From contig CALXXW010000001.1 of assembly GCA_944392785.1 (NCBI GenBank), positions 1-43,655 of the forward strand: a stretch of 43,655 bases of DNA. Direction: 5' to 3'. Below, one piece after another: positions 6,139 to 41,762 of the stretch. How positions within the stretch are numbered: position 1 is the stretch's first letter; each line of letters opens with the position of its first letter. Source of the DNA: an uncultured Alphaproteobacteria bacterium (lineage in GTDB: Bacteria > Pseudomonadota > Alphaproteobacteria > CAAHEQ01 > UBA3637). Position numbers and translations under genes: made by a program. Under the pieces are notes generated by a model. That model made no database searches, had not been told where the DNA came from, and worked only from the letters and a program-made list of their open reading frames with translations.

Positions 6139-6362
6139 ATCGGGCGTTAAAGGGGGTAAATTCCCCCTTTAAGCCCGACCAGAGCCCCGGGGTTAGGAGC
6201 ATTTCTTTGTCTCGGCATTCCATGTCCCATGACACGATTGACACTTGTCTTGAGTGTTCAAGCTGCCGGAACTTAAACGTATCGGACATTTATAACAAGA
6301 GCTTCCATTCATATACCGTGGTATGCCACTCTTATCACACTTGGCACATTCGACTTCTGTCG
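6139..6362. repeat. Right arm of the long inverted repeat (partner 829-1053)
   Basis: The reverse complement matches 829-1053 closely through the terminator hairpin, the stop codon, the C-terminal cap and most of the last cysteine-rich repeat. Confidence 0.85.
6141..6177 (-). terminator. Hairpin terminator after the Cys-rich prepilin-like gene
   Basis: Inverted copy of the 1017-1053 hairpin: on the minus strand the CGGGC-TTAAAGGGGG arm pairs with CCCCCTTTAA and GCCCG. It begins 16 bases after the stop of the gene at 6193. Confidence 0.7.
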
Positions 6363-7572
6363 CTGAAACGCCAGATGAATCGCCGCAGCTGCGGCAAGAG
6401 CCAGTGGTAGTCTGGAACTGATTCGCTCCACAGTTAATTAACCCACAATAGTCACCAAACATTTTGCGAGGAGTGCTACTGGCATCACACTTACCACATT
6501 CGGCCTCGATCGCTGAATAGGCATCTGACTCGCTGCAGCTGTAGCAGCGGCCATCGGTACTCAAAAATCTTGGCGTACTACTGTTCGCACACTTGGCACA
6601 TTCGGCCGCGGTCGCTTCTAGGCCATATGAATAGTTGCAGCTCCGGCAATAGCCATTGGTATCCATAAATCGCGGTGTGCTACTCTTATCACACTTGGCA
6701 CATTCGTCCGCGGTCGCTTTATAGCCAGATGAATCGCTGCAACGGACGCAATAGCCATCAGTACTCATAAATCGTAGTGTGCTGCTGCTATCACACTTGG
6801 CACATTCAGCCGCGGTCGCTTCATAGCTCAATGAATAGCTGCAGCTGCGGCAATAGCCATTGGTATCCATAAATCGAGGCGAACGGCTACCATCACATTT
6901 AGAACAGTCTGCGGCATCAGCCAGGAATGAACCATACGCATCACAATCATAACAGGTGCCTCTTGTATCACAGAATTGTGTCATCGAGCAATCATCTCCG
7001 GACCAACCGGCCTCACACGCGCATGACGTGCCGTCCCAGGTACCATGGCCCCAACAATGCTCTTCATTCGGGTCCGGCGTTTCTTCCCCCTCTCCGCCGG
7101 CCACAGCGCCGCTCTTTAAATCATTGGCAAACGCAAATAACATCTCGTTATTACCTTCGCCACAAACCGTATTGTCATCAACGGCAACACCATCCAACAA
7201 AATAGCCGCCGGCATTTGCCAGTTGACGTCTACAACCTTATCACACACCCCTTGCGGTATATCCGATACCGTTAAAGTAAAGAAGCGGTCATCCCCGTTA
7301 TAGGCATTGTCAGCCACCACACCATACTTGCCGTTAATACGACCGTTATCGCCGTATTCCGTCAAGTCAATCTCGTGCCCCGAGATTCGAGCTTGGCTGG
7401 AGGTGATGGCGCGTTTGCGCACCTCGTTTAAAATTTCATTGGCTTCATATTTATCCATAGCCCAACGATAGCCGGCGACGGCACCGATGGACAAGACGCC
7501 CATAATAGCTAACACGCCCAGCATTTCAACCATGCTGCGGCCGGATTCATTGGTGGGTATATGTTTTTTCAT
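6193..7572 (-). CDS. Prepilin-like protein with EGF-like module and cysteine-rich repeats
   Basis: A 459-residue mosaic. Residues 1-40 look like a class III (type IV pilin) signal: a short basic leader, G11 as the cleavage residue, then RSMVE with Glu at mature position +5 (E16) and a hydrophobic helix LGVLAIMGVLSIGAVAGY. Residues to about 155 resemble a pseudopilin globular domain. After an acidic E/D/P linker comes an EGF-like segment with CWGHGTW and CACEAGWSGDDC. About seven cysteine-rich repeats (C-A-K-C, T-P-R, C-R-S-C) and the CQSCHGTWN cap complete the protein, as in the truncated gene at 1-1001. Purine-rich GGAAAGG repeats precede the ATG. A perfect palindrome (7606-7647) lies 33 bases upstream. 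I infer inner-membrane or pilus anchoring with outward display; no function is known. Confidence 0.85.
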   Translation of the reverse strand: MKKHIPTNESGRSMVEMLGVLAIMGVLSIGAVAGYRWAMDKYEANEILNEVRKRAITSSQARISGHEIDLTEYGDNGRINGKYGVVADNAYNGDDRFFTLTVSDIPQGVCDKVVDVNWQMPAAILLDGVAVDDNTVCGEGNNEMLFAFANDLKSGAVAGGEGEETPDPNEEHCWGHGTWDGTSCACEAGWSGDDCSMTQFCDTRGTCYDCDAYGSFLADAADCSKCDGSRSPRFMDTNGYCRSCSYSLSYEATAAECAKCDSSSTLRFMSTDGYCVRCSDSSGYKATADECAKCDKSSTPRFMDTNGYCRSCNYSYGLEATAAECAKCANSSTPRFLSTDGRCYSCSESDAYSAIEAECGKCDASSTPRKMFGDYCGLINCGANQFQTTTGSCRSCGDSSGVSATEVECAKCDKSGIPRYMNGSSCYKCPIRLSSGSLNTQDKCQSCHGTWNAETKKCS

Positions 7573-7605: not shown

Positions 7606-7647
7606 AAAACTGTCACAAAAAAAGGATCCTTTTTTTGTGACAGTTTT
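7606..7647. repeat. 42-bp perfect palindrome, copy 1
   Basis: Perfectly self-complementary around a central GGATCC: AAAACTGTCAC, seven A, GGATCC, seven T, then GTGACAGTTTT. On the minus strand it lies in the leader of the Cys-rich gene and could form a stable hairpin. It may be a bidirectional terminator, an operator or a recombination site. Confidence 0.9.
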
Positions 7648-7714
7648 CGGGGCTGTTTGGGGGTATCCGGAAAAATAAGATTATCCTATTGATAATTCGT
7701 CATAAAAATTATGC

Positions 7715-7743
7715 TTGACACGGTGGGGTAGATGTGCTAAAAA
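7715..7743 (+). promoter_or_regulatory. Rightward promoter between the palindromes (TTGACA-17-TAAAAA)
   Basis: TTGACA at 7715-7720, 17-bp spacer, TAAAAA at 7738-7743. The predicted start (about 7750) falls inside palindrome copy 2, so any transcript would begin within the hairpin or be blocked by a protein bound there. Confidence 0.55.
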
Positions 7744-7746
7744 GTT

Positions 7747-7776
7747 GTCACAAAAAAAGGATCGTTTTTTTGTGAC
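7747..7776. repeat. Near-perfect palindrome, copy 2
   Basis: GTCAC, seven A, GGATCG, seven T, GTGAC. It has the same 30-bp core as copy 1 (7612-7641), differing only at one central base (GGATCG instead of GGATCC). The two cores are 135 bp apart. Confidence 0.9.
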
Positions 7777-7823
7777 ACTTTTTTCCCAGAAATCCGCGGG
7801 GTTCCAAAGAATTTTAGATACTC

Positions 7824-18608: not shown

Positions 18609-21600
18609 TTAGAAGTTGAAACGAATGCCCGCCCGCAGTTGAGAACGTGTATCACTTTCAATAAACGACACGAACTCTGTTGACAACGTCAAGTTCTGCC
18701 ATTCATATTCAGCTGACACCGAGACCAATCCTCTGCTTCGTTCGGTTGGAATACCTCGTATGCTATAAAGTCCCTGCATTCCTTGAACAGATGCCCGCAC
18801 ATCATGCGCCGGATTTAAAAACTCGCGGTAATAACTTCCCCCGGCACGAATACCCAGCTTATGTCCTTCGGCCAACGTCATATCCTTACGCGCATAAAGT
18901 CCGATTCCTCCTTCAATTGAGGTATACATTTGACGCTTCAAGGTAATACCGCCGATCCCGCTTTCATGGATTTTATCTTGCATATACCCTAACAAGTTCA
19001 GCTCTATTGTTGGCTCCAGCGTCACGAATCCCGCCTGATATTGTCGCCGAATTTCATTAGCAACCCCAAAAATCCAACTATCCGGACGTCCTGTATAATG
19101 ATGGCCACCGGCATAGCGTTTATATTTGCTATCCGCATACCCAATTCGCGGCGTTGCCACCAATGTTGTTGTATCGTCAATTTGGAAAGTTGACGGGAAA
19201 AATACCTGCACCATTAAATCATTACGGGTCGCATCATTATCGTAATCGGAATATAAATGCGTCACACTTAATCCCCAGCCGGCTCGTGTTTTTTTCCCAA
19301 CCTTTTTATCAAACAATCCGTAAATAGAGTTAGCAAAATCGTCATAACCGGTGATCACGCCTTTTGTTTGACGATGCTGGTATAACAGGTCATACGCAAC
19401 GATTGAACGCGTATCGCCCCGAGTCGTGAACAACTCCTCATTAATGGCTCGGTTGATACTGCGCATAACACCGAAATTTTCTTGTTGTAAAACAGGTAGG
19501 ATGTCCGATCCGGTCAAAGCTGCCGTCGCCTTTTCAATATCTGAAGCAGAGGACAGTGTTTTAACCTGTTCAAAAAAGGCTGCATTTGCCCCAAGCGCAT
19601 AATTTTGATTTAAAAATTCGGCCATTTCTTGATCCGCCATCACCTGATCAAAGCCGTTAAATGTCATCACCACATCCGTCGCACCGGCGGCATTTTGAAC
19701 GGTGCTGGCCGTAAAGAGCGGCGTTGTTGAAAGCAGTGTTAAACCGGACATATCTTCTGCTTCCAGAGCACTTTCCTGAACATAGGTTGTTTCAAATCCC
19801 TTAGAGACCGTATTTCCGGAAACATATAAAAGACCAGAGATTGTTTCGGCACGGAAGACACCTCCGTCTGATAACGTCGTCGTTCCCAATTCATCAAAAT
19901 TCAATGTGCCGACAACGGTTAATTCTCCGGCATTATCCAGATCCGCCTGTCCGCTTAACGCATTCTGAGCCGAACCATAGACCGTTATTTTCCCGGTGTT
20001 GGTGATACTGGCTCCCGCAACGCCGTAAATACCATAAGCCGAGCCACTCGCACATGTTCCATCCAAACATGTAATGGTAATATCTCCGCTATTATTCAAA
20101 CTGGCCCCGGACTCCAGATAAATTCCATAAGCCTGACCACCCACCGCATTGGAAATGTTAATAGCCCCCGTATTTGTAATGCTACCGCCTTTAGCATAAA
20201 TACCATACACGCTACCGCTGACCTCTGTATTTAAATTCGTCATGTTAATCGTGCCCGAATTCTGCACAGAACCGGAACCATTGTTATAAATACCATAGGC
20301 GCTATTTCCACCTGTGTTCATTACGGTAATATCCCCCGAATTAGTCAAGCTACCGGTCGCGTCATTATAAAGTGCAACAACCGACCCGTTATAATTGCTC
20401 CAACCGTTCTCTGCCCAATCTTGCGCATCATTCATGATAATATCGGCCTGATTGGTTGTCGTGGCATTACCGTCTTGATAGACGCCGTATGCCGGGCTGA
20501 TACCATAGCTGTTATTTTTTATGGTTGTCCCGGCCGCCGTTGTAATTTGGCCGCCGTTCGCATAAATACCATATGTTGTATACTGAGGATCCTCATTTGC
20601 ATTACCTCGGTAGGATAAGGTCACATCGGCATTAGAGGTGACAGCACCACCGGCAGTATAAAGTCCTGCGATGACACGCCCGCCGGAAGGAGCAATCACA
20701 CCCGTTTCACGGTCAATCGACACGACTCCGTCATTGATAATACTTCCCGAACCGGCATAAATACCATAGACGTTTCCTTCACTGTCTCCTGGCAAGAAAG
20801 TGATTGTTCCGCTATTGGTGATTGTTCCGCTGCCGCCGTAAATACCGGCACTTTGTGTCGTGTTTTTTCCATTGGTCTGTTCAATCGTGATATTCCCTTG
20901 GTTATTGATTTGAGCATTTGTCTGAATACCGATGGCAGTTCCGCTGAAATCCACCTCAACACTTAAATCCCCACTGTTTTGAACGGCACCGGTGGCGAAT
21001 AAAGCCACATTTTCCGAGGTCGTCGTATAGGTCGAAACACCGGTATTGCTGACAGACACATCTCCTGTGTTGTTCAGCGAGCCCGAAGCATAAATACCAT
21101 ACGTATCTCCCAAGCTGCTGTTGACCGCATTGGCCGCTATTGTCCCATTATTTACCACAGATCCTGCGGACCAAATACCAGCAATCAAGCCTTGCGTCGT
21201 CGCCGTTCCCGTTGCCGTAATGGATCCGTAATTATTAAGGGAAACAGAAGCATTTGTACCCAGCTCTTGGAAAATGCCATACACACCCGTTAATTGACGC
21301 GACGCATTCACGACGATTGTGCCGCCAGATGTATCTTGAGCCCCATTATCCAACAGAAAAGCATTCGTGTGAATACCACTCAGGACATCGGCCGTTGTTC
21401 CACCGCTTTGAGAGACCGAAATAGCCCCCGTATTTGATAGGGTGAGATGATGACTAGAACAGTGCTCCATAGCCTCAATTCCCGAGGTATTTCCGGCATT
21501 GGTTGTACTACCTGTTTTAGAAACCGTAATGGCGCCCGAATTGATATTGTTCAGCATTTGCGTTTGAATACCAAACGTCTGTCCTCCGCTTTCATTGGAT

Positions 21601-23897
21601 ACGGAAATCGCTCCGCTGTTATTCAATGTATTACCATTGCCTTGATTATTGACAGAGCTGGTCGAGTTAATCACATTCAAAGCATAAATACCGACCACAT
21701 CGTCTGTGCCTGCTCCTGTACGTTCGACGGCAACATCGCCGCTATTCGTCAAATTTCGGAACCCTGCCGCGACTGACACGGTTCCATTGCTGTAGATACC
21801 ATATGCGGCTCCTGAACCGGCATGAGATACCTCTATGTCACTGGCATTGGTCAAGGTATAGGCTATAGACGAGGCCGCTTGTGATTGAATCCCATAGACA
21901 TCTGCCGCCGCCGTTGCCGCCAGTTGAGAGACGGAAATCGTGCCACCGCTATTTTGAATGGTCTGAGCATTTGTCATGATCCCGACGACCAACTCGGAGG
22001 TCTCTTCACTACTGACGGTAATGTCACCACTGTTTTGAACGGTTGCCGCACTGGAGGTTGCTTGCATACCATAGACATTTTCATTAACAGGGATAGGGTT
22101 TTCTGCATCTTCTTCCGAATCTTGTGCTGCCGATTGTTCAACATTCACCAACAAACTACCCGTGTTTTGAATCACGCCGCTTCCTGATGATGACAGACCA
22201 TAAGTATCCCCCCCGCCCGAGGTTGTCACACTGACGATGCCATAATTATTCAGCGTATTATTCGCTTGCATCCCATAGGTCACTCCGGAGCCCGTATTGG
22301 CAATCGTCATCGTCCCGGCATTATAGATAGTACCTCCTGAGGCCTGAGCCCCATACACGGTCGCCGCCCCCTCGTTTGTCAGCGTCACGGTGCCAAGATT
22401 ACGTATTTCAGCATTATTTGTGGCGAATAACCCATAAAAATCCTGTCCTCCCGGTTGGCTACCAACCGCAATTTTCGTCAAATTAATCGTTCCGTAATTC
22501 CCCACAAGTGTACCGGCTCCCGAAGCATTCACGCCATAAGAGACCGCCGTCCCGACCGTTTGTAATTCAATCAACCCACTGTTATCAACTTGAGCCCCGT
22601 TTTGCGCCAAAATACCCAAGGCCGCCGCCGCACCCGTTCCTGACGTTGTATTGTTGACGATACTGCCCTCTTCCGTATTTAATACGAACGTATTTTGTCC
22701 GTTGGCACTGATACCATATTGGGCATAACTTTGCATATTGATGGCTGCCGCATTCACAACCACGACATTTTCTTCCCGCCCGTCCGTTCCGACAAAGGCT
22801 TTGACCTGAATAGCCGGCACATTATATTGTAAATTAAAATCTTGATCTTCACGGATATTGATAAAGTTTTGCTGTTGATCGATGTTATTGATAATAATTA
22901 AATTTGTTCCATGGACTAAATCCGGATCATCGGCATCGACACCATCCAAATCTCGAATACATTGATCGTTAACACGCACATAACCTTCGGTACAAACGAA
23001 CCCATGAAGACGATCTACCTCCGAAGCATCTTCTCCCGGCTGAGTGGCATTATCCGGCAGCGGCTGACAACTTTGTCCGTTCCAGTACTGATCCGTCGGG
23101 CACGGGAGCGCGCAGGTTGGACCAAACCATCCCTCCGAGCATTGACAGACGGCTCCAACCTGTGTCCCCCCATTCAAACAGGTCAATTCGGGATAGCAAA
23201 CACCATTACTCATAGCATATCCCGGCAAACACGTTTCACAGTTTGTGGCGTGATTATGTCCCGTATTACACACACAGTTTATACCCACTTGATGCGCATT
23301 TGCCCCACAATCAAGTTGAATCAAGGTACATCCGACGGTCGGGTCTCCTTCATACCCCGTCAAGCACACACAGCTGCCGGCCTGAGCATAAGCATTGGCA
23401 CCGCATTCTAAGACATCATACTTTTTTCCGCCACCACCGCCATCGGCCGCCGAGACGGCAACAGCGACACCACCGGCCAACAAGGCAATCCCGGCCGTAT
23501 TCAAGACCACACTTGTTGTGCGTCCCAACCCTTCGGTTGTTTTTTGAATTCCCCGTTTTTCGGCATACGTCATCGGACGATTAGGATCGGCAATATAAGA
23601 TTTAGCGCAAGGGTGATTCCGATCAGCGCCCAATTTTATCAATAAAGTTACCGCATGAGCTTCTTTTTCCCGCATGGCATGGCAAAGAGCCGTCTCACCG
23701 TCTTCATTTTCACTATCCAAGGCATATCCTTGGTATTGTAAATCGCGAATACCGCGGCTATCCCCCTTCAGAGCCAAGCGATAAAAGGCATCTTCTGCCG
23801 AGGCCGATGACATCTGAGCCCATCCCGGGAAAGCCAACAGGCTTACCAGAAAAACAAACCCGATTTCTGCCCATGAAACGATTATTTTACGCCGCAT
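18609..23897 (-). CDS. Giant autotransporter with ankyrin-like and EGF-like N-terminal modules
   Basis: A 1762-residue type V-secreted protein. Residues 1-27 are a Sec signal ending FPGWA. Residues about 30-105 resemble ankyrin repeats (EDAFYRLALKGDSRGIRDL; GETALCHAM; AVTLLIKLGAD). A hydrophobic stretch (about 125-145, VVLNTAGIALLAGGVAVAVSAA) and a GGGGG linker follow. Residues about 155-300 hold several cysteine-rich EGF-like units. About 340-1440 is a long beta-helical passenger built of repeats such as YGIYANG, ITNTGAI and NSGDI. The last 280 or so residues are an autotransporter beta-barrel ending in aromatic GIRFNF. The ATG at 23897 is chosen because GGGGGAATTT precedes it; an upstream in-frame ATG at 23930 would put non-signal residues first. 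Probable surface adhesin; ligand unknown. Confidence 0.9.
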   Translation of the reverse strand: MRRKIIVSWAEIGFVFLVSLLAFPGWAQMSSASAEDAFYRLALKGDSRGIRDLQYQGYALDSENEDGETALCHAMREKEAHAVTLLIKLGADRNHPCAKSYIADPNRPMTYAEKRGIQKTTEGLGRTTSVVLNTAGIALLAGGVAVAVSAADGGGGGKKYDVLECGANAYAQAGSCVCLTGYEGDPTVGCTLIQLDCGANAHQVGINCVCNTGHNHATNCETCLPGYAMSNGVCYPELTCLNGGTQVGAVCQCSEGWFGPTCALPCPTDQYWNGQSCQPLPDNATQPGEDASEVDRLHGFVCTEGYVRVNDQCIRDLDGVDADDPDLVHGTNLIIINNIDQQQNFINIREDQDFNLQYNVPAIQVKAFVGTDGREENVVVVNAAAINMQSYAQYGISANGQNTFVLNTEEGSIVNNTTSGTGAAAALGILAQNGAQVDNSGLIELQTVGTAVSYGVNASGAGTLVGNYGTINLTKIAVGSQPGGQDFYGLFATNNAEIRNLGTVTLTNEGAATVYGAQASGGTIYNAGTMTIANTGSGVTYGMQANNTLNNYGIVSVTTSGGGDTYGLSSSGSGVIQNTGSLLVNVEQSAAQDSEEDAENPIPVNENVYGMQATSSAATVQNSGDITVSSEETSELVVGIMTNAQTIQNSGGTISVSQLAATAAADVYGIQSQAASSIAYTLTNASDIEVSHAGSGAAYGIYSNGTVSVAAGFRNLTNSGDVAVERTGAGTDDVVGIYALNVINSTSSVNNQGNGNTLNNSGAISVSNESGGQTFGIQTQMLNNINSGAITVSKTGSTTNAGNTSGIEAMEHCSSHHLTLSNTGAISVSQSGGTTADVLSGIHTNAFLLDNGAQDTSGGTIVVNASRQLTGVYGIFQELGTNASVSLNNYGSITATGTATTQGLIAGIWSAGSVVNNGTIAANAVNSSLGDTYGIYASGSLNNTGDVSVSNTGVSTYTTTSENVALFATGAVQNSGDLSVEVDFSGTAIGIQTNAQINNQGNITIEQTNGKNTTQSAGIYGGSGTITNSGTITFLPGDSEGNVYGIYAGSGSIINDGVVSIDRETGVIAPSGGRVIAGLYTAGGAVTSNADVTLSYRGNANEDPQYTTYGIYANGGQITTAAGTTIKNNSYGISPAYGVYQDGNATTTNQADIIMNDAQDWAENGWSNYNGSVVALYNDATGSLTNSGDITVMNTGGNSAYGIYNNGSGSVQNSGTINMTNLNTEVSGSVYGIYAKGGSITNTGAINISNAVGGQAYGIYLESGASLNNSGDITITCLDGTCASGSAYGIYGVAGASITNTGKITVYGSAQNALSGQADLDNAGELTVVGTLNFDELGTTTLSDGGVFRAETISGLLYVSGNTVSKGFETTYVQESALEAEDMSGLTLLSTTPLFTASTVQNAAGATDVVMTFNGFDQVMADQEMAEFLNQNYALGANAAFFEQVKTLSSASDIEKATAALTGSDILPVLQQENFGVMRSINRAINEELFTTRGDTRSIVAYDLLYQHRQTKGVITGYDDFANSIYGLFDKKVGKKTRAGWGLSVTHLYSDYDNDATRNDLMVQVFFPSTFQIDDTTTLVATPRIGYADSKYKRYAGGHHYTGRPDSWIFGVANEIRRQYQAGFVTLEPTIELNLLGYMQDKIHESGIGGITLKRQMYTSIEGGIGLYARKDMTLAEGHKLGIRAGGSYYREFLNPAHDVRASVQGMQGLYSIRGIPTERSRGLVSVSAEYEWQNLTLSTEFVSFIESDTRSQLRAGIRFNF

Positions 23898-23925
23898 AAA
23901 TTCCCCCGTCCAAAACGTGAACATA

Positions 23926-23971
23926 CACATGTGGTCGACTATACCAAAAAGAATGTTAATTTTTAGTTAAC
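23926..23971 (-). promoter_or_regulatory. Region upstream of the giant autotransporter: -10-like box and small hairpin
   Basis: On the minus strand a TATAGT box lies about 35-45 bases before the ATG without a good -35, which may indicate activator dependence. Just upstream, GTTAA (23955-23959) and TTAAC (23967-23971) form a weak hairpin that may end the glycosyltransferase operon. Confidence 0.35.
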
Positions 23972-23999: not shown

Positions 24000-25172
24000 T
24001 CACTCAAAAAGCTTCGGAGGATTTTCTCGATACCCAAAGGAATCTTCTTGCCATTCATATACCTCTTCACGACCGTCTTCCCATTGAACGACCAAATAGC
24101 GATCATCTTGAAACAAAACGGTTGCCGTATCGCCATTGCTTTCACGGCGATATCGTCCGGGGCCATGGGGGATAAAGTTATCCAACCATAATTTATGCTT
24201 GATATACAAACTTCCCGGCGGCAGATTTTCCTCTGTGCACTCTTTACGATACGTGAATTCCAAAGCCTCCTCAGAAATAATGTGACGTTGTTGATTCGCC
24301 GGTATCATACGAGCCATCAATTCACATCGAGACAACGATGCCGCCTCTTCCGGCGTAATTCCAAAACGCCCGAGCAGACGTGCCGAAACACGTTCTCTTC
24401 CTTGTTGAATCGCCCGATAGTAATCGGCTGTATTCGTCCGATGACGCCGAATAATAAGCAACGGCTCACTCATCATCTCCAGACGCCCGCCGGCCATCAA
24501 GACCTGTGCCCACATATCATAATCTTCCGAGCTGATCATCTCTTCATCGTATCGAATGCCATGACGTTCTATGAAATCGCGACGAATCAAGCCCAAATGC
24601 GTATAATAATTTCCAAAATTCATAAGCACTTCTTCTCGCGGGGGCGGCACCCAGTTATTAACCGAGCCTTTATCTGTTTTGATATAGACGGAATTAACGG
24701 CTGTTGCGGCCGGATTATTTTCTAAGTAGGCGACGGATTTTTGCAACCGCTCCGGCAAAGAAATATCATCACTGTCCATAATAGCGATATACGTTCCGTG
24801 CGCTATATCATTTCCATCATTCCGACTTTTGGAAATGCCTTGATTTTCCGGGTGACGCAACAAGATGATTCGAGAATCAAGCGCCTCAAAATCTTTCAAC
24901 AGTTCCCACGTATCATCTGTCGAACCGTCATCGACAATAATGAATTCAAAATCATCCCACGTCTGCCCCAAAATAGAATTCACGGCGCGAGGCAACATCT
25001 CAACCCGATTATAAACCGGCATCACCACCGACACCGTCGGCGGATTCACCGTAAACCACAACCGACGCCAGCCTGACGGCCAAATGAACCTTATCGTCAT
25101 TAAGGTCCCGACACAAAGAAACAGCAGAAGGGCAAATACATAATATCTTCGTTTTATTTTTCTGGTTTGCAT
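24000..25172 (-). CDS. Membrane-anchored family 2 glycosyltransferase
   Basis: 390 residues. One N-terminal membrane anchor (about 10-30, YVFALLLFLCVGTLMTIRFIW) is followed by a GT-A catalytic domain: SVVMPVYNRVEMLPRAVNSIL, VDDGSTD for nucleotide binding, and the metal-binding D-x-D segment MDSDD. A later SSEDYDMW segment supplies the likely catalytic acidic residue. The C-terminal 100 residues (EESIGYR-like, with VVQWEDGREEVYEW) match no domain I know. The donor and acceptor sugars cannot be deduced. The ATG is 3 bp after the yqgE stop, so it ends the TIGR02300-yqgE operon. There is no polysaccharide gene cluster around it; two further orphan glycosyltransferases occur at 28741 and 35208. 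Confidence 0.85.
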   Translation of the reverse strand: MQTRKIKRRYYVFALLLFLCVGTLMTIRFIWPSGWRRLWFTVNPPTVSVVMPVYNRVEMLPRAVNSILGQTWDDFEFIIVDDGSTDDTWELLKDFEALDSRIILLRHPENQGISKSRNDGNDIAHGTYIAIMDSDDISLPERLQKSVAYLENNPAATAVNSVYIKTDKGSVNNWVPPPREEVLMNFGNYYTHLGLIRRDFIERHGIRYDEEMISSEDYDMWAQVLMAGGRLEMMSEPLLIIRRHRTNTADYYRAIQQGRERVSARLLGRFGITPEEAASLSRCELMARMIPANQQRHIISEEALEFTYRKECTEENLPPGSLYIKHKLWLDNFIPHGPGRYRRESNGDTATVLFQDDRYLVVQWEDGREEVYEWQEDSFGYRENPPKLFE

Positions 25173-28546: not shown

Positions 28547-28744
28547 ATGAACAAGAAAAAAATAAATTGGAAAACAACCTTAGACATTGCAGAAGACATT
28601 TGCACCATTATTGTTTCATTGATGGCGGTTTGGGGAACTGTTGTCGCGTTTCAACACGATTTATTTCATAAGACGCTTCATCTGGTTGACTATTACCATA
28701 GCCAATTGGATCAAACCGTTTCTGACATCAAGGAAAAAATTTAA
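28547..28744 (+). CDS. Small single-pass membrane protein, unknown function
   Basis: 65 residues. A basic N-terminus (MNKKKINWK) is followed by a hydrophobic segment about 17-38 (ICTIIVSLMAVWGTVVAF) and a polar, His-rich C-terminal tail (FHKTLHLVDYYHSQLDQ). It is preceded by AAAGGG and a promoter. Its stop codon overlaps the stop of the convergent glycosyltransferase gene (4 bp). I do not recognise a family. The strong membrane segment and expression signals support a real gene. Confidence 0.55.
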   Translation: MNKKKINWKTTLDIAEDICTIIVSLMAVWGTVVAFQHDLFHKTLHLVDYYHSQLDQTVSDIKEKI

Positions 28745-29622
28745 GGCTGACACTTCACCTCGTGAGACGGGAGCATACCCGTTTTTAAATTCCACTCAGC
28801 CAACGGATTGTCACGAAGGCACTCTTCCCGTGTCCGAGGAGTCAACGCGTGTTTAAACGCCAAAAATCCGCTGCGAATCCGATAAAGTGCCTTTTGTTGT
28901 TCCTGACGATAGCTCTCGTCATAATCTTGGGGATGATGATGTATGCGAACCAAGCGCTCGGGAATGCAAAAAAATGTCGCACCTGCTTTTAAAAAATCCA
29001 CCCAAAACCCATAATCTTCAGCCCTGGGATAACTCAGATTATAGCGAATATGATGCTGTAATTGGAACTCTTTACGATACACGCATCCAACATTTCCGAC
29101 CGTATTATTTTTCCACATTCCCGATATCGGATAAGCGGCCTCATTCCACACATGGTTAGGATCTGAAGCAAACAGGCGCCTGAGAGGATAGACAACCGTT
29201 ATCGAAGGATAAGTATCTAAATATGCCACCGAACGTTCCAACCACAAAGGCTCGGCCATATCATCATCATCCAATATCGCGATATAACGCCCGCGTGATT
29301 GAGCCATACCCAAAGCTCGCGCCCGAATAACGCCGACATTTTGGGCAAGATTCAGCGGCTTGATACGACTGTCTTTTTGATGATATTTCGACAAGACTTC
29401 GGCTGTTGTATCAGATGAGGCATCATTAACAACAATTACCTCAAAATCTGTATATGTCTGAGCTAACAAGGAATCCAATGCCCGTATCAAACCGGACTCG
29501 GCACGATTATGGGTAGCCATAATAACCGATACCACAGGCCTGTTCCAAACAACGTATAGTTGAATGCTCCAAACGACCAGCAACAGAAGGGAAAGCCCCC
29601 CGTAAAAATATGCCTTTTTCAT
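28741..29622 (-). CDS. Membrane-anchored family 2 glycosyltransferase
   Basis: 293 residues: an N-terminal membrane anchor (about 5-25, YGGLSLLLLVVWSIQLYVVW), then a GT-A domain with SVIMATHNRAESGLIRALDSLL, VVNDASSDT and metal-binding ILDDDDM. The later PRAEDYGFWVDFL segment carries the probable catalytic acidic pair. It resembles the protein at 24000-25172 in layout but is shorter, lacking the extra C-terminal region. The ATG at 29622 is chosen because it follows the promoter directly; an in-frame ATG at 29658 lies in the -35 box. Donor and acceptor unknown. Confidence 0.85.
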   Translation of the reverse strand: MKKAYFYGGLSLLLLVVWSIQLYVVWNRPVVSVIMATHNRAESGLIRALDSLLAQTYTDFEVIVVNDASSDTTAEVLSKYHQKDSRIKPLNLAQNVGVIRARALGMAQSRGRYIAILDDDDMAEPLWLERSVAYLDTYPSITVVYPLRRLFASDPNHVWNEAAYPISGMWKNNTVGNVGCVYRKEFQLQHHIRYNLSYPRAEDYGFWVDFLKAGATFFCIPERLVRIHHHPQDYDESYRQEQQKALYRIRSGFLAFKHALTPRTREECLRDNPLAEWNLKTGMLPSHEVKCQP

Positions 29623-29629
29623 AGGAGAA

Positions 29630-29658
29630 GTTTTAACATAAAAAAAGCGTGATGTCAA
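29630..29658 (-). promoter_or_regulatory. Glycosyltransferase promoter (TTGACA-17-TAAAAC), near-leaderless
   Basis: On the minus strand: TTGACA (29658-29653), 17-bp spacer, TAAAAC (29635-29630). The ATG at 29622 starts 8 bases after the -10, so the transcript should begin at or next to the start codon. Confidence 0.65.
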
Positions 29659-35104: not shown

Positions 35105-35166
35105 GCCTATTTGACAGATCAGTCAGCGCACCAGGTTAAGGAAAGATGTGGATCTTATGTTTTTCC

Positions 35167-35195
35167 TTGACTCTATAACCTCAAAGGGCTATACT
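35167..35195 (+). promoter_or_regulatory. Glycosyltransferase promoter (TTGACT-17-TATACT), short leader
   Basis: TTGACT at 35167-35172, 17-bp spacer, TATACT at 35190-35195. The predicted start near 35202 leaves about 6 bases before the ATG at 35208. An out-of-frame ATG at 35203 ends at once (ATG GTA TGA). Confidence 0.65.
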
Positions 35196-35207
35196 ACACT
35201 GGATGGT

Positions 35208-36080
35208 ATGAATACACAAAAATATACTTCAAAAATCTTTTACGGTGCCTTTTGGGCTTTGCTCATCATTGAAGGGGCGCTTGCTTGTCGGCTGCTTCAA
35301 TCCCTATCTCTCATGGCTGAGCCTCAATTCGTCGCCTTTGTTCGTGTAAAAAACGAAATCAAAACAATTCACGCATGCCTCGATTCCATTGATGGCATTT
35401 TTGATCGGATTGTCATTATTCATTCAAATGAACCGGATGATGGATCTGTTGCTTTTATGAGGCAATGGTGCCGACCAGAGCGTTCCTGTGAAATTCACGA
35501 ATATCCTCATGCCGTTATTCCTGCCAATGACCGGCGGATCAAGGAAAACCCAAAGTGGGAAAACACTCTGGCGGCCTACTATGAATTCGGTCTGAAATTT
35601 TTCAACCCCGAAGATTGGGTGGTCAAAATAGATGCCGACCAAATCTACATCACCGAGACACTCAGACAAACCATCCAATCTCTTAAGCGAACGCTGATCG
35701 GCCGAGATAAATACCTGTTGGGTTTATGGGGTTATAATACCCTGGCTCGGCAAGGAACTTTGTTAAAATATAAAGCCACTCCCAAGAACGGCCTGGAATT
35801 TGATCATTATATTGTCAAAAGAAAACACATCATGGGTTTTGAACAAAAGCCCTATTGCGAACAAATAAAGCTGAAGAAGTTAAAGCGCTATCGAATTCGC
35901 AAGGGACACTGGTTTCACTTTTCAAAATCATACAACAAGAATTATCAAAGAACGCCCTCGGACCAAGTTCCTCTAGATAAATTAACGACCTTATCTGCAT
36001 TTGAAAAGGGCCTTTATCAACAACATATTTTACCTTTGTTGATAAATACACAATCCCCCTATGCCCGCTTACGGTATTAA
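35208..36080 (+). CDS. Membrane-anchored glycosyltransferase, CgtA-like
   Basis: 290 residues. A hydrophobic N-terminal segment (about 8-30, IFYGAFWALLIIEGALACRLL) anchors a glycosyltransferase domain. It contains FVRVKNEIKTIHACLDSI, a SNEPDDGS segment, a metal-binding region WVVKIDADQIY, and later a GHWFHFSKS motif. The RVKNE, KIDxD and His pattern resembles the Campylobacter CgtA-type beta-1,4-N-acetylgalactosaminyltransferases that modify lipooligosaccharide; the sugar here is not determinable. The ATG at 35208 is chosen because the in-frame ATG at 35148 lies upstream of the promoter. It stands alone, with no LPS cluster. Confidence 0.7.
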   Translation: MNTQKYTSKIFYGAFWALLIIEGALACRLLQSLSLMAEPQFVAFVRVKNEIKTIHACLDSIDGIFDRIVIIHSNEPDDGSVAFMRQWCRPERSCEIHEYPHAVIPANDRRIKENPKWENTLAAYYEFGLKFFNPEDWVVKIDADQIYITETLRQTIQSLKRTLIGRDKYLLGLWGYNTLARQGTLLKYKATPKNGLEFDHYIVKRKHIMGFEQKPYCEQIKLKKLKRYRIRKGHWFHFSKSYNKNYQRTPSDQVPLDKLTTLSAFEKGLYQQHILPLLINTQSPYARLRY

Positions 36081-38075: not shown

Positions 38076-41000
38076 TTAGAAGTTATATTTCAAGTTAATC
38101 ATACCCGTATTATCGGTATAGTCATTACGGAATTTGCCTTCCCAGAAGAGGCCCAGCTCCATGTTATCAGCAATATCCGTTGTCAAACCGACCGCGAATT
38201 CCGTCCCGAAGCGTTTTAAAGCTTTCCCTTCGGTAGAAATGACGGCACCGTTAGCCAAGCTCATGACCGTTGCCGCATTATCGCGAACAAAGTCATAGGT
38301 GACAGCGGCACGCACTTCCGGTTTCAACAAGACGGTATCCGTCACCTTCCAATCGTAGACGGCCTTGGCACCCAAAACACCGGTCAAGATATCTGAGCTA
38401 CCGCTATGGATACGGTCGCCGATGCTATCCGTATAGGCTTGTTGCTGAATGTTCATATAGCGCAAACCAGCCTCCGGCGTCAATGTCAAAGCATTCATAT
38501 GAATATCATACCCTGTCATCGCTTGTAAGGCCAGCGTATCGACATCATACTTACTTGTCACATCTGTCAATGAGTATCTGTGCTCATCATAACGACCCCA
38601 AGTATAGGAAGCGATACCGTTGACATACCAATTACTGGGCTTATATTCTGCGTATAACAAAGCGCTGTTTGAATCGATTTCTGTTTTACGCAAATCCGGT
38701 TTGATATCTGAGTTGGTGTAAGCATAACCTAAACCGACTTTGACGGCATCCGTGATTTGAGCCTCGGCTCCCAAAGCAATACCTTGCGAGTAAGCATCAA
38801 ACCCGTCTGTTCCCGTATATTTAGATTTGTTATACAAGCCTTTTGCCCAGACAGCCCCTTTTCCGGAAACCATATCACCGGAAGATTCACCCATGGAAAC
38901 TGTTGATCCACCGCTCAAACGAGAGCCGGCCGCTGCCAAGATCTGCGACACGGTCTGTGTTGCCTGAGCTTGGATAACCGGAGCCTCGACAGGCGCCAAA
39001 GCCTTAGCGGCTTGCACACCGGCAGCGACGACGTCCGCATCTGAGGACTGCAGCATAGTATGAATACTTTCGGCAACCGTATCAAACGCTTCGACTCCTG
39101 ACGTTCCGGATGTCACAGCGACGATTGTATCGGCGACCACACCGGTTGCACCCGTTGTTTCGGCGATAGCAGCCGCATCTTTCTGCGTGACTTGGATAGA
39201 ACCCTCATTCATGGACATGTCATACAGATTGTTATCGGCTATTGTAAAGGATCCAGTGACAGAGTCTGCCTGAATGAAATCATACTCTCCGCCTTCCGTG
39301 ATATTTGTCATGATCAAATTCAACGTTGAATCATCCCCGATAGAAACCGAGCCAGCCAAAATAGTCGTTGTATTCAACGTAGCTGTCAAAGAGGTGTTAT
39401 CGGCAAAGACAACACTTCCGTCACCACTGATACCGCCATCCAATGTCAAGTTTCCGGCAACATTCAATGTTCCGTTGTTGTAAATATCATTCAGCTTACC
39501 GTTCGCCCGGTTGCCCGAGAATACGTTATTGCCTGTCAGGCTAATCGTTGCATCGGCCATATTGTGGATAGCGCCACCGCCTAAGACATTTTGGTTAGAA
39601 GCGCTATTCCCTGTAAAGCGTGAATCACTGATAGTGATTTTACCGGCATTGGAAATGGCACCGCCTTTATCCGCGCTATTACCGCTGAAAGTTGCCGTTA
39701 TGTTTTTAATAGCACTTGATTTGGCATTATAAATCGCACCACCGCGCCCGGTATCACCGGATGACCAAACAGCTTCGTTTCCTGTAAATGTTCCGGTTAA
39801 ACTTTCAATTGTTGCAAAATTACCGTTATAAATAGCACCACCGTCAACATTGGCTTTATTATTGCTGAATGTTGCATTTGTTAAAGCCAGACGACTGGCC
39901 TTTCCGCTGTTATAGACGGCGCCACCTTTGTCAGCGCTATTCCCTGAGAATGTCGTCGCACCGGCTGCTGTGACCTCACCGGCATTATTCCGGATAGCCC
40001 CACCGGCATTTGTTGCTTCATTGCCCGTAAATTGAGCACCAGATTTCAGCGTCAACTTACCAGAGTTATAAATAGCACCACCTTCGGCTTGACCGCTGGT
40101 AGAAGAAGCCGAGTTGTCTACAAAATTGCCAGCAACAGTAAACGTTCCTTCATTGTAAACGGCACCGCCCAAAGCTTTTGTGGCATTTGTTGTCACCGAG
40201 TTATCCGTAAAATTACCGGTGACAGAAACCGTAGCCTTTTTGCCATCTTCCTTAATAGAAATAGCACCACCTGTAGAAGCTTTGGTGACATCCGTATCGG
40301 CTGTTGTCGCAACAACGGTATTAGTTGTAAAATCTCCCGTAATGTTATCAATCGAAACATCTGTATTTTTACCGGCTTTAATATAAATAGCACCACCGTT
40401 GGCATAACCATCGCCTTGAGCTTTGTTATTCGTGAAATCACCCGCAATAGAGCCAATTTTGGTTGCTTCACCGCTACCATACTTACCTTCAATATGAATA
40501 GCACCGCCACCGGCAGAAACAATTGCACTAGAGCCCTTAGCATAATCCTTACTACCACCCTCGGCAATTTCAGCAATAGCTTTATTCCCGTCGAAATTAC
40601 CAGCAATACCTTTGATTGTGCTTTGATATAAGGCTAAAGCACCACCGTTAGCTGTAGCTTTACTGGCATTAGCAGCCGTTGTATGGACGGAGTTTTTGCT
40701 AAAATTACCGGTAATTGTTCCAATACTGCCTGTATTGTAAATGGCGCCACCTTGAGCATAAACATCTGTTCCGGCGGCAGTTGAACTATTTTTGATCGCT
40801 TCAGCATAGTTTCCTGTGAAATCAGCCGCCATATTACCGATTGTTCCGGCATTATAAATAGCGCCACCGATTTTAGTCACATGGTTTGCATCAAACGTCA
40901 CCTTCTCATCGAAAGTCATATCGCCCAAGTTCACGTTCTCACCGAAAGTCATATCGCCCAAGTTATAGATAGCACCACCGGACTGCGCATCGTTTCCACT

Positions 41001-41762
41001 AAAGCTAGATCCGGCTCCGACATGGACTTTATTGTAAAAGTCCGTTTTTTTCTCCGCTTCGTCATTATTTAAGTTGGCAATAGCACCCCCTCGATTGGTA
41101 GAGTGATTCCCTGTAAATGTTGTTTTACCCAACGTTAAAGTTGTTCCTTCCGTTGAGCCATTACTTTTATCCGTCCAAATAGCAATGGCACCGCCGTCAG
41201 CATCACTGTGGTTCCCCGAAAACGTAGCACTACCAATTGTGACGGATTCGGCAGTCTCAATACCCAAAGCACCGCCTAACCATTTGGATGAATTATTCGT
41301 GAAAGTAGTATTATCCCCAAAGATAACTTCCCGATTTGATAGCTTGTCCCCTGGGTAGTTGACGGCCCCTTTTTGAGGGATTTTAACATATAAACCACCG
41401 GAAATTTCCTCTGATCTATTTTGGTAAAATGTCCAGCGGTCACCCGCCGTAAAACCATTCAAAGCCTTCATAGCTCCCCCAGAGTTAACAGAGGAATTAT
41501 TGGAAAATGTGACACCATTCACACCGTCTTGAGACAAGTAGTCACCATATGATAGCGTTAGACCTGCTGCGTCCTCAATACCCGAATTGGTATTGTGTCT
41601 ATTTGAAAAAGTCTGACCACTTGATATTTCCACACTTGCTGCCATCGCCGGAGCGGCAAAAGCAACCCCTAATAAAATAACCGCATTTAACAAAGCACAT
41701 TTACGCAAAACCTGTGCATATCTGGCGCTTAACTCTTTTAGAGCTGTATTTGAATACTTCAT
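38076..41762 (-). CDS. Pmp-like autotransporter adhesin
   Basis: 1228 residues. A long N-terminal signal (1-42) has an extended polar region and a hydrophobic core ending AAPAMA. The passenger (about 45-870) consists of about 19 G-G-A-I/L/V units alternating with F-T/S-G-N or F-x-x-N units. This is the paired motif of chlamydial polymorphic membrane proteins (Pmp), which fold as beta-helices. A linker leads to an autotransporter beta-barrel (about 940-1228) ending GMINLKYNF. AAGGAG precedes the ATG. A 33-bp tandem duplication (40903-40968) inside the passenger shows recent repeat change. Likely surface adhesin; target unknown. Confidence 0.92.
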   Translation of the reverse strand: MKYSNTALKELSARYAQVLRKCALLNAVILLGVAFAAPAMAASVEISSGQTFSNRHNTNSGIEDAAGLTLSYGDYLSQDGVNGVTFSNNSSVNSGGAMKALNGFTAGDRWTFYQNRSEEISGGLYVKIPQKGAVNYPGDKLSNREVIFGDNTTFTNNSSKWLGGALGIETAESVTIGSATFSGNHSDADGGAIAIWTDKSNGSTEGTTLTLGKTTFTGNHSTNRGGAIANLNNDEAEKKTDFYNKVHVGAGSSFSGNDAQSGGAIYNLGDMTFGENVNLGDMTFDEKVTFDANHVTKIGGAIYNAGTIGNMAADFTGNYAEAIKNSSTAAGTDVYAQGGAIYNTGSIGTITGNFSKNSVHTTAANASKATANGGALALYQSTIKGIAGNFDGNKAIAEIAEGGSKDYAKGSSAIVSAGGGAIHIEGKYGSGEATKIGSIAGDFTNNKAQGDGYANGGAIYIKAGKNTDVSIDNITGDFTTNTVVATTADTDVTKASTGGAISIKEDGKKATVSVTGNFTDNSVTTNATKALGGAVYNEGTFTVAGNFVDNSASSTSGQAEGGAIYNSGKLTLKSGAQFTGNEATNAGGAIRNNAGEVTAAGATTFSGNSADKGGAVYNSGKASRLALTNATFSNNKANVDGGAIYNGNFATIESLTGTFTGNEAVWSSGDTGRGGAIYNAKSSAIKNITATFSGNSADKGGAISNAGKITISDSRFTGNSASNQNVLGGGAIHNMADATISLTGNNVFSGNRANGKLNDIYNNGTLNVAGNLTLDGGISGDGSVVFADNTSLTATLNTTTILAGSVSIGDDSTLNLIMTNITEGGEYDFIQADSVTGSFTIADNNLYDMSMNEGSIQVTQKDAAAIAETTGATGVVADTIVAVTSGTSGVEAFDTVAESIHTMLQSSDADVVAAGVQAAKALAPVEAPVIQAQATQTVSQILAAAGSRLSGGSTVSMGESSGDMVSGKGAVWAKGLYNKSKYTGTDGFDAYSQGIALGAEAQITDAVKVGLGYAYTNSDIKPDLRKTEIDSNSALLYAEYKPSNWYVNGIASYTWGRYDEHRYSLTDVTSKYDVDTLALQAMTGYDIHMNALTLTPEAGLRYMNIQQQAYTDSIGDRIHSGSSDILTGVLGAKAVYDWKVTDTVLLKPEVRAAVTYDFVRDNAATVMSLANGAVISTEGKALKRFGTEFAVGLTTDIADNMELGLFWEGKFRNDYTDNTGMINLKYNF

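Follow-up and report, generated by a model that had tools for sequence, protein, structure and literature searches.

A family of type IVb prepilins with cysteine-rich tails and predicted invertible promoters in an uncultured alphaproteobacterium

The DNA analysed here (the window, 43,655 nucleotides) is the entire contig C1 (CALXXW010000001.1) of an uncultured Alphaproteobacteria bacterium, the genome of which comprises 1,124,423 bases in 25 contigs and is 98% complete (GCA_944392785.1). It carries a gene for a 459-residue protein that starts as a prepilin and ends in cysteine-rich repeats (Table 1). This gene probably belongs to a family of at least 13 adhesive type IVb pilins with near-identical heads, whose phase variation would come from a single master invertase that inverts their promoters. 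The genomes compared are drafts, mostly metagenome assemblies.

In the proposed mechanism, an Mpi-family recombinase would pair the two sites of one gene and invert the 103-bp segment between them, the loci being handled singly. After inversion the promoter would be directed into the gene (ON); the opposite orientation would be OFF, which is the predicted state of the window copy, and the reverse inversion would silence the gene again. At 11/11 visible family flanks, the gene appears to have, or to have had, its own promoter on such a segment. The prepilin would be inserted, cut after G11 and incorporated in a type IVb pilus, with its tail, an epidermal growth factor (EGF)-like unit followed by cysteine-rich repeats, exposed as the variable binding part. 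An earlier note made from the letters of this DNA mentions neither the invertible promoter nor the invertase, nor that the gene has many near-identical copies.

Prepilin start, pilin head and pilus genes

The open reading frame is genuine, with an ATG start and a ribosome site, AGGAAAGGAAAA. It is not a chance frame, because the genome has about 13 copies that share the head, the tail with its 3' hairpin, or both, and relatives were found in all 33 genomes of the family that were searched. A contig scan with the window protein alone found no relatives, but a scan with the alignment recovered them. The N-terminus has a short leader ending in Gly (G11), Glu at +5 (E16) and a hydrophobic helix over residues 12–63; among 43 aligned sequences, R12 and E16 never vary and G11 almost never does. 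The type IV prepilin-like signal G11-RSMVE that the earlier note had pointed out is thus confirmed. That note took the C-terminal two thirds to replace a pilin head, which does not hold, as the cysteine-rich part is added onto a head. Residues 12–149 are modelled as a complete type IVb pilin fold and not as a plain transmembrane anchor, the confidence score (predicted local distance difference test) of the AlphaFold2 (AF2) model being mostly >90 over residues 30–150. In structure alignment with VIA-align the head matched CFA/III pilin (9iuf; Z 10.4, root-mean-square deviation 3.5, 138 residues aligned), TCP (8uhf; Z 9.4), CofA and TcpA (3s0t and 3hrv; Z 8.8 each) and PilS (Z 7.0). The ten best matches are pilins only, mostly type IVb (Z 6.3–10.4), and the first unrelated one has Z 4.0. 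Since C110 and C137 are invariant in the alignment, a disulfide between them is likely.

Pilus genes, for which the earlier note proposed to look, are present elsewhere in the genome. Contig C4 has, in this order, genes for a TcpQ-like protein (PF10671, E 2e-16), a PilN-family secretin (TIGR02520, 281.8 bits, slightly below the cut-off of 287.65), PilO (PF06864, E 2.6e-22), then, where PilP would be expected, a 315-residue protein with no family assigned, followed by an assembly ATPase (PF00437) and a PilC/R-like protein (PF00482, T2SSF). Together with a PilD-like prepilin peptidase (PF01478, Peptidase_A24) on contig C13, these genes are a type IVb pilus set.

In relatives, the head carries other kinds of tail. 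A relative from another genus of the same family, G025 (record CALXZG01, BRZ_KG__bin33), has about 15 copies, most of them with paired sites of different sequence. The tail of its protein L115 has a C-type-lectin-like fold in structure alignment (residues 308–412; Z up to 9.8). As the same head bears a lectin-like tail in this relative, the tails, among them the cysteine-rich one, probably serve to bind ligands. Structure alignment gave no match in PDB for the cysteine-rich tail, but that part was barely tested according to the aligner's own warning. Across relatives the prepilin head appears to serve generally as a module for display. Among L145, L164, L177 and L192, prepilin heads are joined to tails with a common CNAGTGGFKTN-like ending and to other, mutually unlike tails. 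A diversity-generating retroelement was considered for the lectin tails of G025 and rejected, since adenine bias is lacking (0.152 changes per site for A, 0.147 for G).

Predicted invertible promoter segments and the putative Mpi-family invertase

Upstream of the window gene, two 32-bp palindromes with centres 135 bp apart enclose the 103-bp segment. The corresponding segment at C5:4415 aligns with it with a score of 179 in reverse and 23.5 in forward orientation. The predicted promoter stops 2 bp short of the distal site, and only when the segment lies as in C5 does it read into the gene; a short segment with a predicted promoter between inverted sites is the arrangement of a promoter inverton. 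The promoter layout (17-bp spacer, TGn before the -10, 2–5 bp from the site) is common to three unrelated segments, the window's and two of G025.

A genome search with the half motif found 16 palindromic sites, besides two half-matches that are weak and isolated, and the reversed-pattern control found 0. All 16 sites fall at eleven family flanks having the conserved outer sequence. The segment is directed away from the gene, the predicted OFF state, at nine of these flanks: C1 (the window), C2, C4 end, C20, C12 end, C4 start, C24 start, C5 start and C23 end. It is reversed, predicted ON, at C5:4415, and excised at C22. The C22 copy (L087 3498–3529) retains a single site, has lost the promoter segment and is followed by a gene without head, an apparent case of excision and decay; excision would fit the self-complementary AT at the site centre.

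Paralogues with the segment reversed are found in four genomes, which represent at least three genera. In G025, one class of segment (class B) is reversed in L093 and L095 relative to several other copies. These two copies have kept their outer half-sites and swapped their inner ones, the boundary being the central dinucleotide TT/AA, and by its sequence this exchange is the product expected of a serine recombinase that cuts with a 2-bp stagger. In SIG53 (SUUT01), L158 is reversed relative to eleven other copies, and in RGIG7750 (JAFZGR01), L137 relative to three loci. Paired 32-bp palindromes were recovered by a strict search among relatives only in G025, the other genera having shorter or imperfect repeats. 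In four G025 copies (L095, L096, L098 and L102) a repeat element (GACCCCCGATCAGGTCGGGGATGACGG and CGCTTTCGCAGGGATGACGG) separates the switch from the GRSMVEM codons, and the leader is longer or altered.

Two serine recombinases are encoded in the window genome, a large one of 563 residues and one of 203 residues, P0002. The latter scores 301.7 bits against the NCBIfam model NF009949, "master DNA invertase Mpi family" (cut-off 272). Mpi-like genes occur in 24 of the 32 other family genomes (best match 47–66% identity) and are absent from eight, which makes 25/33 with the window's own; among 24 genomes outside the family, weak matches were found in four. Upstream repeat pairs accompany 0/23 prepilin loci in the eight Mpi-lacking genomes vs 8/19 best loci in the Mpi-bearing ones (Fisher p 0.0006), a p value that is only indicative because repeat pairs were detected crudely, around half of the eight are low-complexity or otherwise atypical, and copies in one genome are non-independent. 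P0002 presumably inverts the promoter segments.

The same sites could be read as bidirectional terminators or regulator-binding sites of co-regulated genes, the C5 reversal being an old rearrangement or an assembly artefact. In a scan of the window region, the distal palindrome does come up on both strands as a terminator-like element, and all sites precede one kind of gene. This explanation is nevertheless improbable in view of the reversals in four genomes, the half-site exchange at the centre, the excised copy, the Mpi-family gene and the joint absence of repeat pairs and Mpi. Inversion by a tyrosine recombinase, XerC/D or another, in place of the Mpi-like enzyme is judged very improbable. 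Two such enzymes exist in the genome, and the 13-bp arms and 6-bp core of the sites resemble tyrosine-recombinase sites; however, these two are the only ones, their frames, of 302 and 328 residues, have the length of XerC/XerD, the exchange in G025 is on a 2-bp centre and repeat pairs accompany Mpi.

Promoter inversion by the Mpi-family enzyme would act on a family of at least 13 copies in the genome, which have the head, the tail end and the post-stop hairpin in common. Eight copies differ by 0–5 mismatches across 120 nt of the head, and the repeat regions are mostly 75–90% identical between copies. On contigs C2 and C10, two full-length copies have a different head and tail and an identical leader at the start. 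Such a family, with the pilin start constant and the remainder variable, recalls Neisseria pilE/pilS, where RecA-dependent gene conversion brings silent cassettes into one expression site. Antigenic variation of this type would explain why heads and 5' regions are near-identical while tails vary, and why a single copy is predicted ON. It is the least probable of the alternatives, since 11/11 visible flanks have their own switch or its remnant and every full-length copy begins with a start codon and leader of its own, but contig breaks cut eleven copies short of their 5' end. The heads may nevertheless be kept alike by gene conversion.

It is possible, though doubtful, that the invertase and a limiting rule keep one pilin-adhesin ON and the rest OFF, so that expression is nearly one at a time and ligand specificity or antigen is switched among whole genes. 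The assembled states are one ON among ten intact flanks in the window genome, one vs eleven in SIG53, one vs three in RGIG7750 and two reversed copies in G025. They are compatible with such a rule and also with a plain low frequency of ON.

Several findings weigh against phase-varied adhesive pilins as the explanation, in addition to the crude detection of repeat pairs. The -10 hexamer TAAAAA is weak (4/6), and a generic promoter scan does not list the promoter at 7715–7743, so the ON/OFF assignment is a prediction. The two orientations come from different, paralogous loci and not from a single locus followed over time or within one population; viral contigs searched for same-species DNA, in which one locus might be seen in two states, yielded none. 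The assembly breaks exactly at these genes: eleven copies are truncated inside the gene at contig ends, ahead of their 5' end, as expected if the assembler failed across the near-identical 5' regions, and most copies are not joined to their own upstream flank. Near-identical copies are collapsed in the assembly, so the copy number and the linkage of tail to switch are uncertain. On the protein side, the N-terminus does match Pfam N_methyl (residues 13–31), as the earlier note would have it checked, but at 13.5 bits, below the gathering score of 21.2, and the pilin assignment rests on fold and context instead. The EGF-like unit and cysteine-rich repeats of that note are present, the Pfam EGF_2 match (residues 170–195) having 18.7 bits against a cut-off of 22.1. 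The +1 residue is Arg throughout the family, not Phe, Met or Leu; pilins commonly, though not always, have one of these or a similar residue there. The earlier note's proposal of a cysteine-rich adhesin displayed on a pilus fits, with the genes of a pilus route and an adhesin-like extension in its favour; display and adhesion, like switching at any one locus, are inferred.

The Arg at +1, an extension of >300 residues and a pilus known here from genes alone would also suit a pseudopilin, or a membrane-anchored surface protein outside any pilus, in which case the switch may still be real. This alternative is unlikely, as the head has a type IVb pilin fold, the genome encodes a type IVb secretin, TcpQ and PilO, and long extensions occur on tip minor pilins such as CofB. 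CofB and TcpB, of CFA/III and TCP respectively, combine a pilin head with a long C-terminal extension in a type IVb pilus. They differ from the present proteins in being single copy and not inversion-phased, and their extension is a beta domain, not cysteine-rich repeats.

Comparison with known switching systems

In Bacteroides fragilis, one serine recombinase, Mpi, acts on many scattered short invertible promoters of surface structures, including capsule operons, according to the account in PMC4747536 (Coyne et al., 2003). The present system has a serine recombinase of the same NCBIfam equivalog, and would share with it the many scattered short invertible promoters for surface structures and one locus per site pair. 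It differs in its alphaproteobacterial host, in its targets, which are pilin-adhesins and not capsule operons, and in its near-perfect 32-bp palindromic sites.

The earlier note knew of no described system with such an architecture, but a functional parallel exists. The minor pilin PilV of the IncI plasmids R64 and TP114 has a constant pilin head and an exchangeable C-terminal binding part in a type IVb pilus (PMC9045228). The two are alike in the pilus type and in the pilin head with a variable C-terminal binding part, and the outcome is comparable. In the PilV shufflon, however, the tyrosine recombinase Rci changes the 3' end of one gene, whereas here promoter inversion would switch whole genes. 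Identity with a shufflon, in which 3' cassettes of one pilV gene are exchanged, was rejected, as the inversion sits upstream of whole genes. DNA inversion also controls type IV pilin expression in Moraxella bovis, as related in PMC11868660 (Marrs et al., 1988); here, in contrast, there are many loci, each with an invertible promoter.

The family is best read as Bacteroides-type Mpi switching applied to PilV-like pilins, for which no earlier description was found. Among the papers searched, none joins invertible promoters with pilins in Alphaproteobacteria, and none describes EGF-like and cysteine-rich repeats on minor pilins, an absence that is weak evidence of novelty. No inversions were reported for Alphaproteobacteria (0/4 samples) in a survey of DNA inversion (PMC5903667). 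If correct, the reading would combine promoter switching by a master invertase with variable pilus-borne adhesins in widespread uncultured Alphaproteobacteria of animal guts with genomes of about 1 Mb. That so small a genome devotes a notable share of its genes to this repertoire suggests that host, phage or partner cells exert strong pressure.

Feature coordinates and neighbouring genes

Table 1. Features of the prepilin-adhesin locus and of its putative invertase (window positions unless a contig is given; G000, window genome).
Feature	Position	Strand	Basis
Prepilin-adhesin gene, 459 aa	6193..7572	-	ATG and ribosome-binding site; about 13 paralogues in genome
Prepilin leader, residues 1–11 (MKKHIPTNESG), predicted cleavage after G11	7540..7572	-	Sequence; family alignment
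Type IVb pilin head, residues 12–149: helix 12–63, four strands, C110/C137	7126..7539	-	AF2, VIA, alignment
EGF-like unit, residues 170–196	6985..7065	-	Pfam EGF_2, below cut-off
Cysteine-rich repeats (34-aa and 50-aa units) and conserved end CxSCHGTWNAxTKKCS	6196..6984	-	Repeat spacing in 13 copies; paralogues end alike
Conserved hairpin directly 3' of stop codon	6139..6179	-	Present in 13/13 copies read
Gene-side recombination site, perfect 32-bp palindrome TGTCACAAAAAAAGGATCCTTTTTTTGTGACA	7611..7642	.	
Invertible 103-bp segment, predicted OFF	7643..7745	.	Reverse complement of C5 copy segment
Predicted promoter TTGACA-17-TAAAAA, TGC before -10, directed away from gene	7715..7743	+	Sequence; layout recurs in G025
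Distal recombination site, 32-bp palindrome TGTCACAAAAAAAGGATCGTTTTTTTGTGACA	7746..7777	.	
Conserved outer flank CCGCGGATTTCTGGGAAA	7782..7799	-	At 11/11 flanks in genome
Second family member, C-terminal 332 aa only, interrupted by contig start	3..1001	+	Same tail and 3' hairpin
Mpi-family serine recombinase P0002, 203 aa	G000:C25:32552-33160	-	NCBIfam NF009949

The hairpin behind the stop codon is a probable terminator or mRNA end. It is strong here and at the 3' ends of the 12 other copies, has no T run and differs in its loop between copies. Identity of the second family member with NF047412 was rejected, its score being below the cut-off of that model. A degenerate DNA motif for the prepilin start gave zero matches. 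On contig C23, L050 (1–1929) has a long TTTTYETTTPQV repeat followed by the cysteine-rich repeats and tail of the pilin family; its prepilin start is not visible, the contig being cut.

Elsewhere in the window, two very large autotransporter-like proteins of 1773 and 1228 residues are encoded at 18609–23930 (-) and 38076–41762 (-), and the larger of them also has EGF-like cysteine motifs close to its N-terminus. Three separate family-2 glycosyltransferase-like genes, at 24000–25172, 28741–29658 and 35148–36080, encode hydrophobic N-terminal segments.
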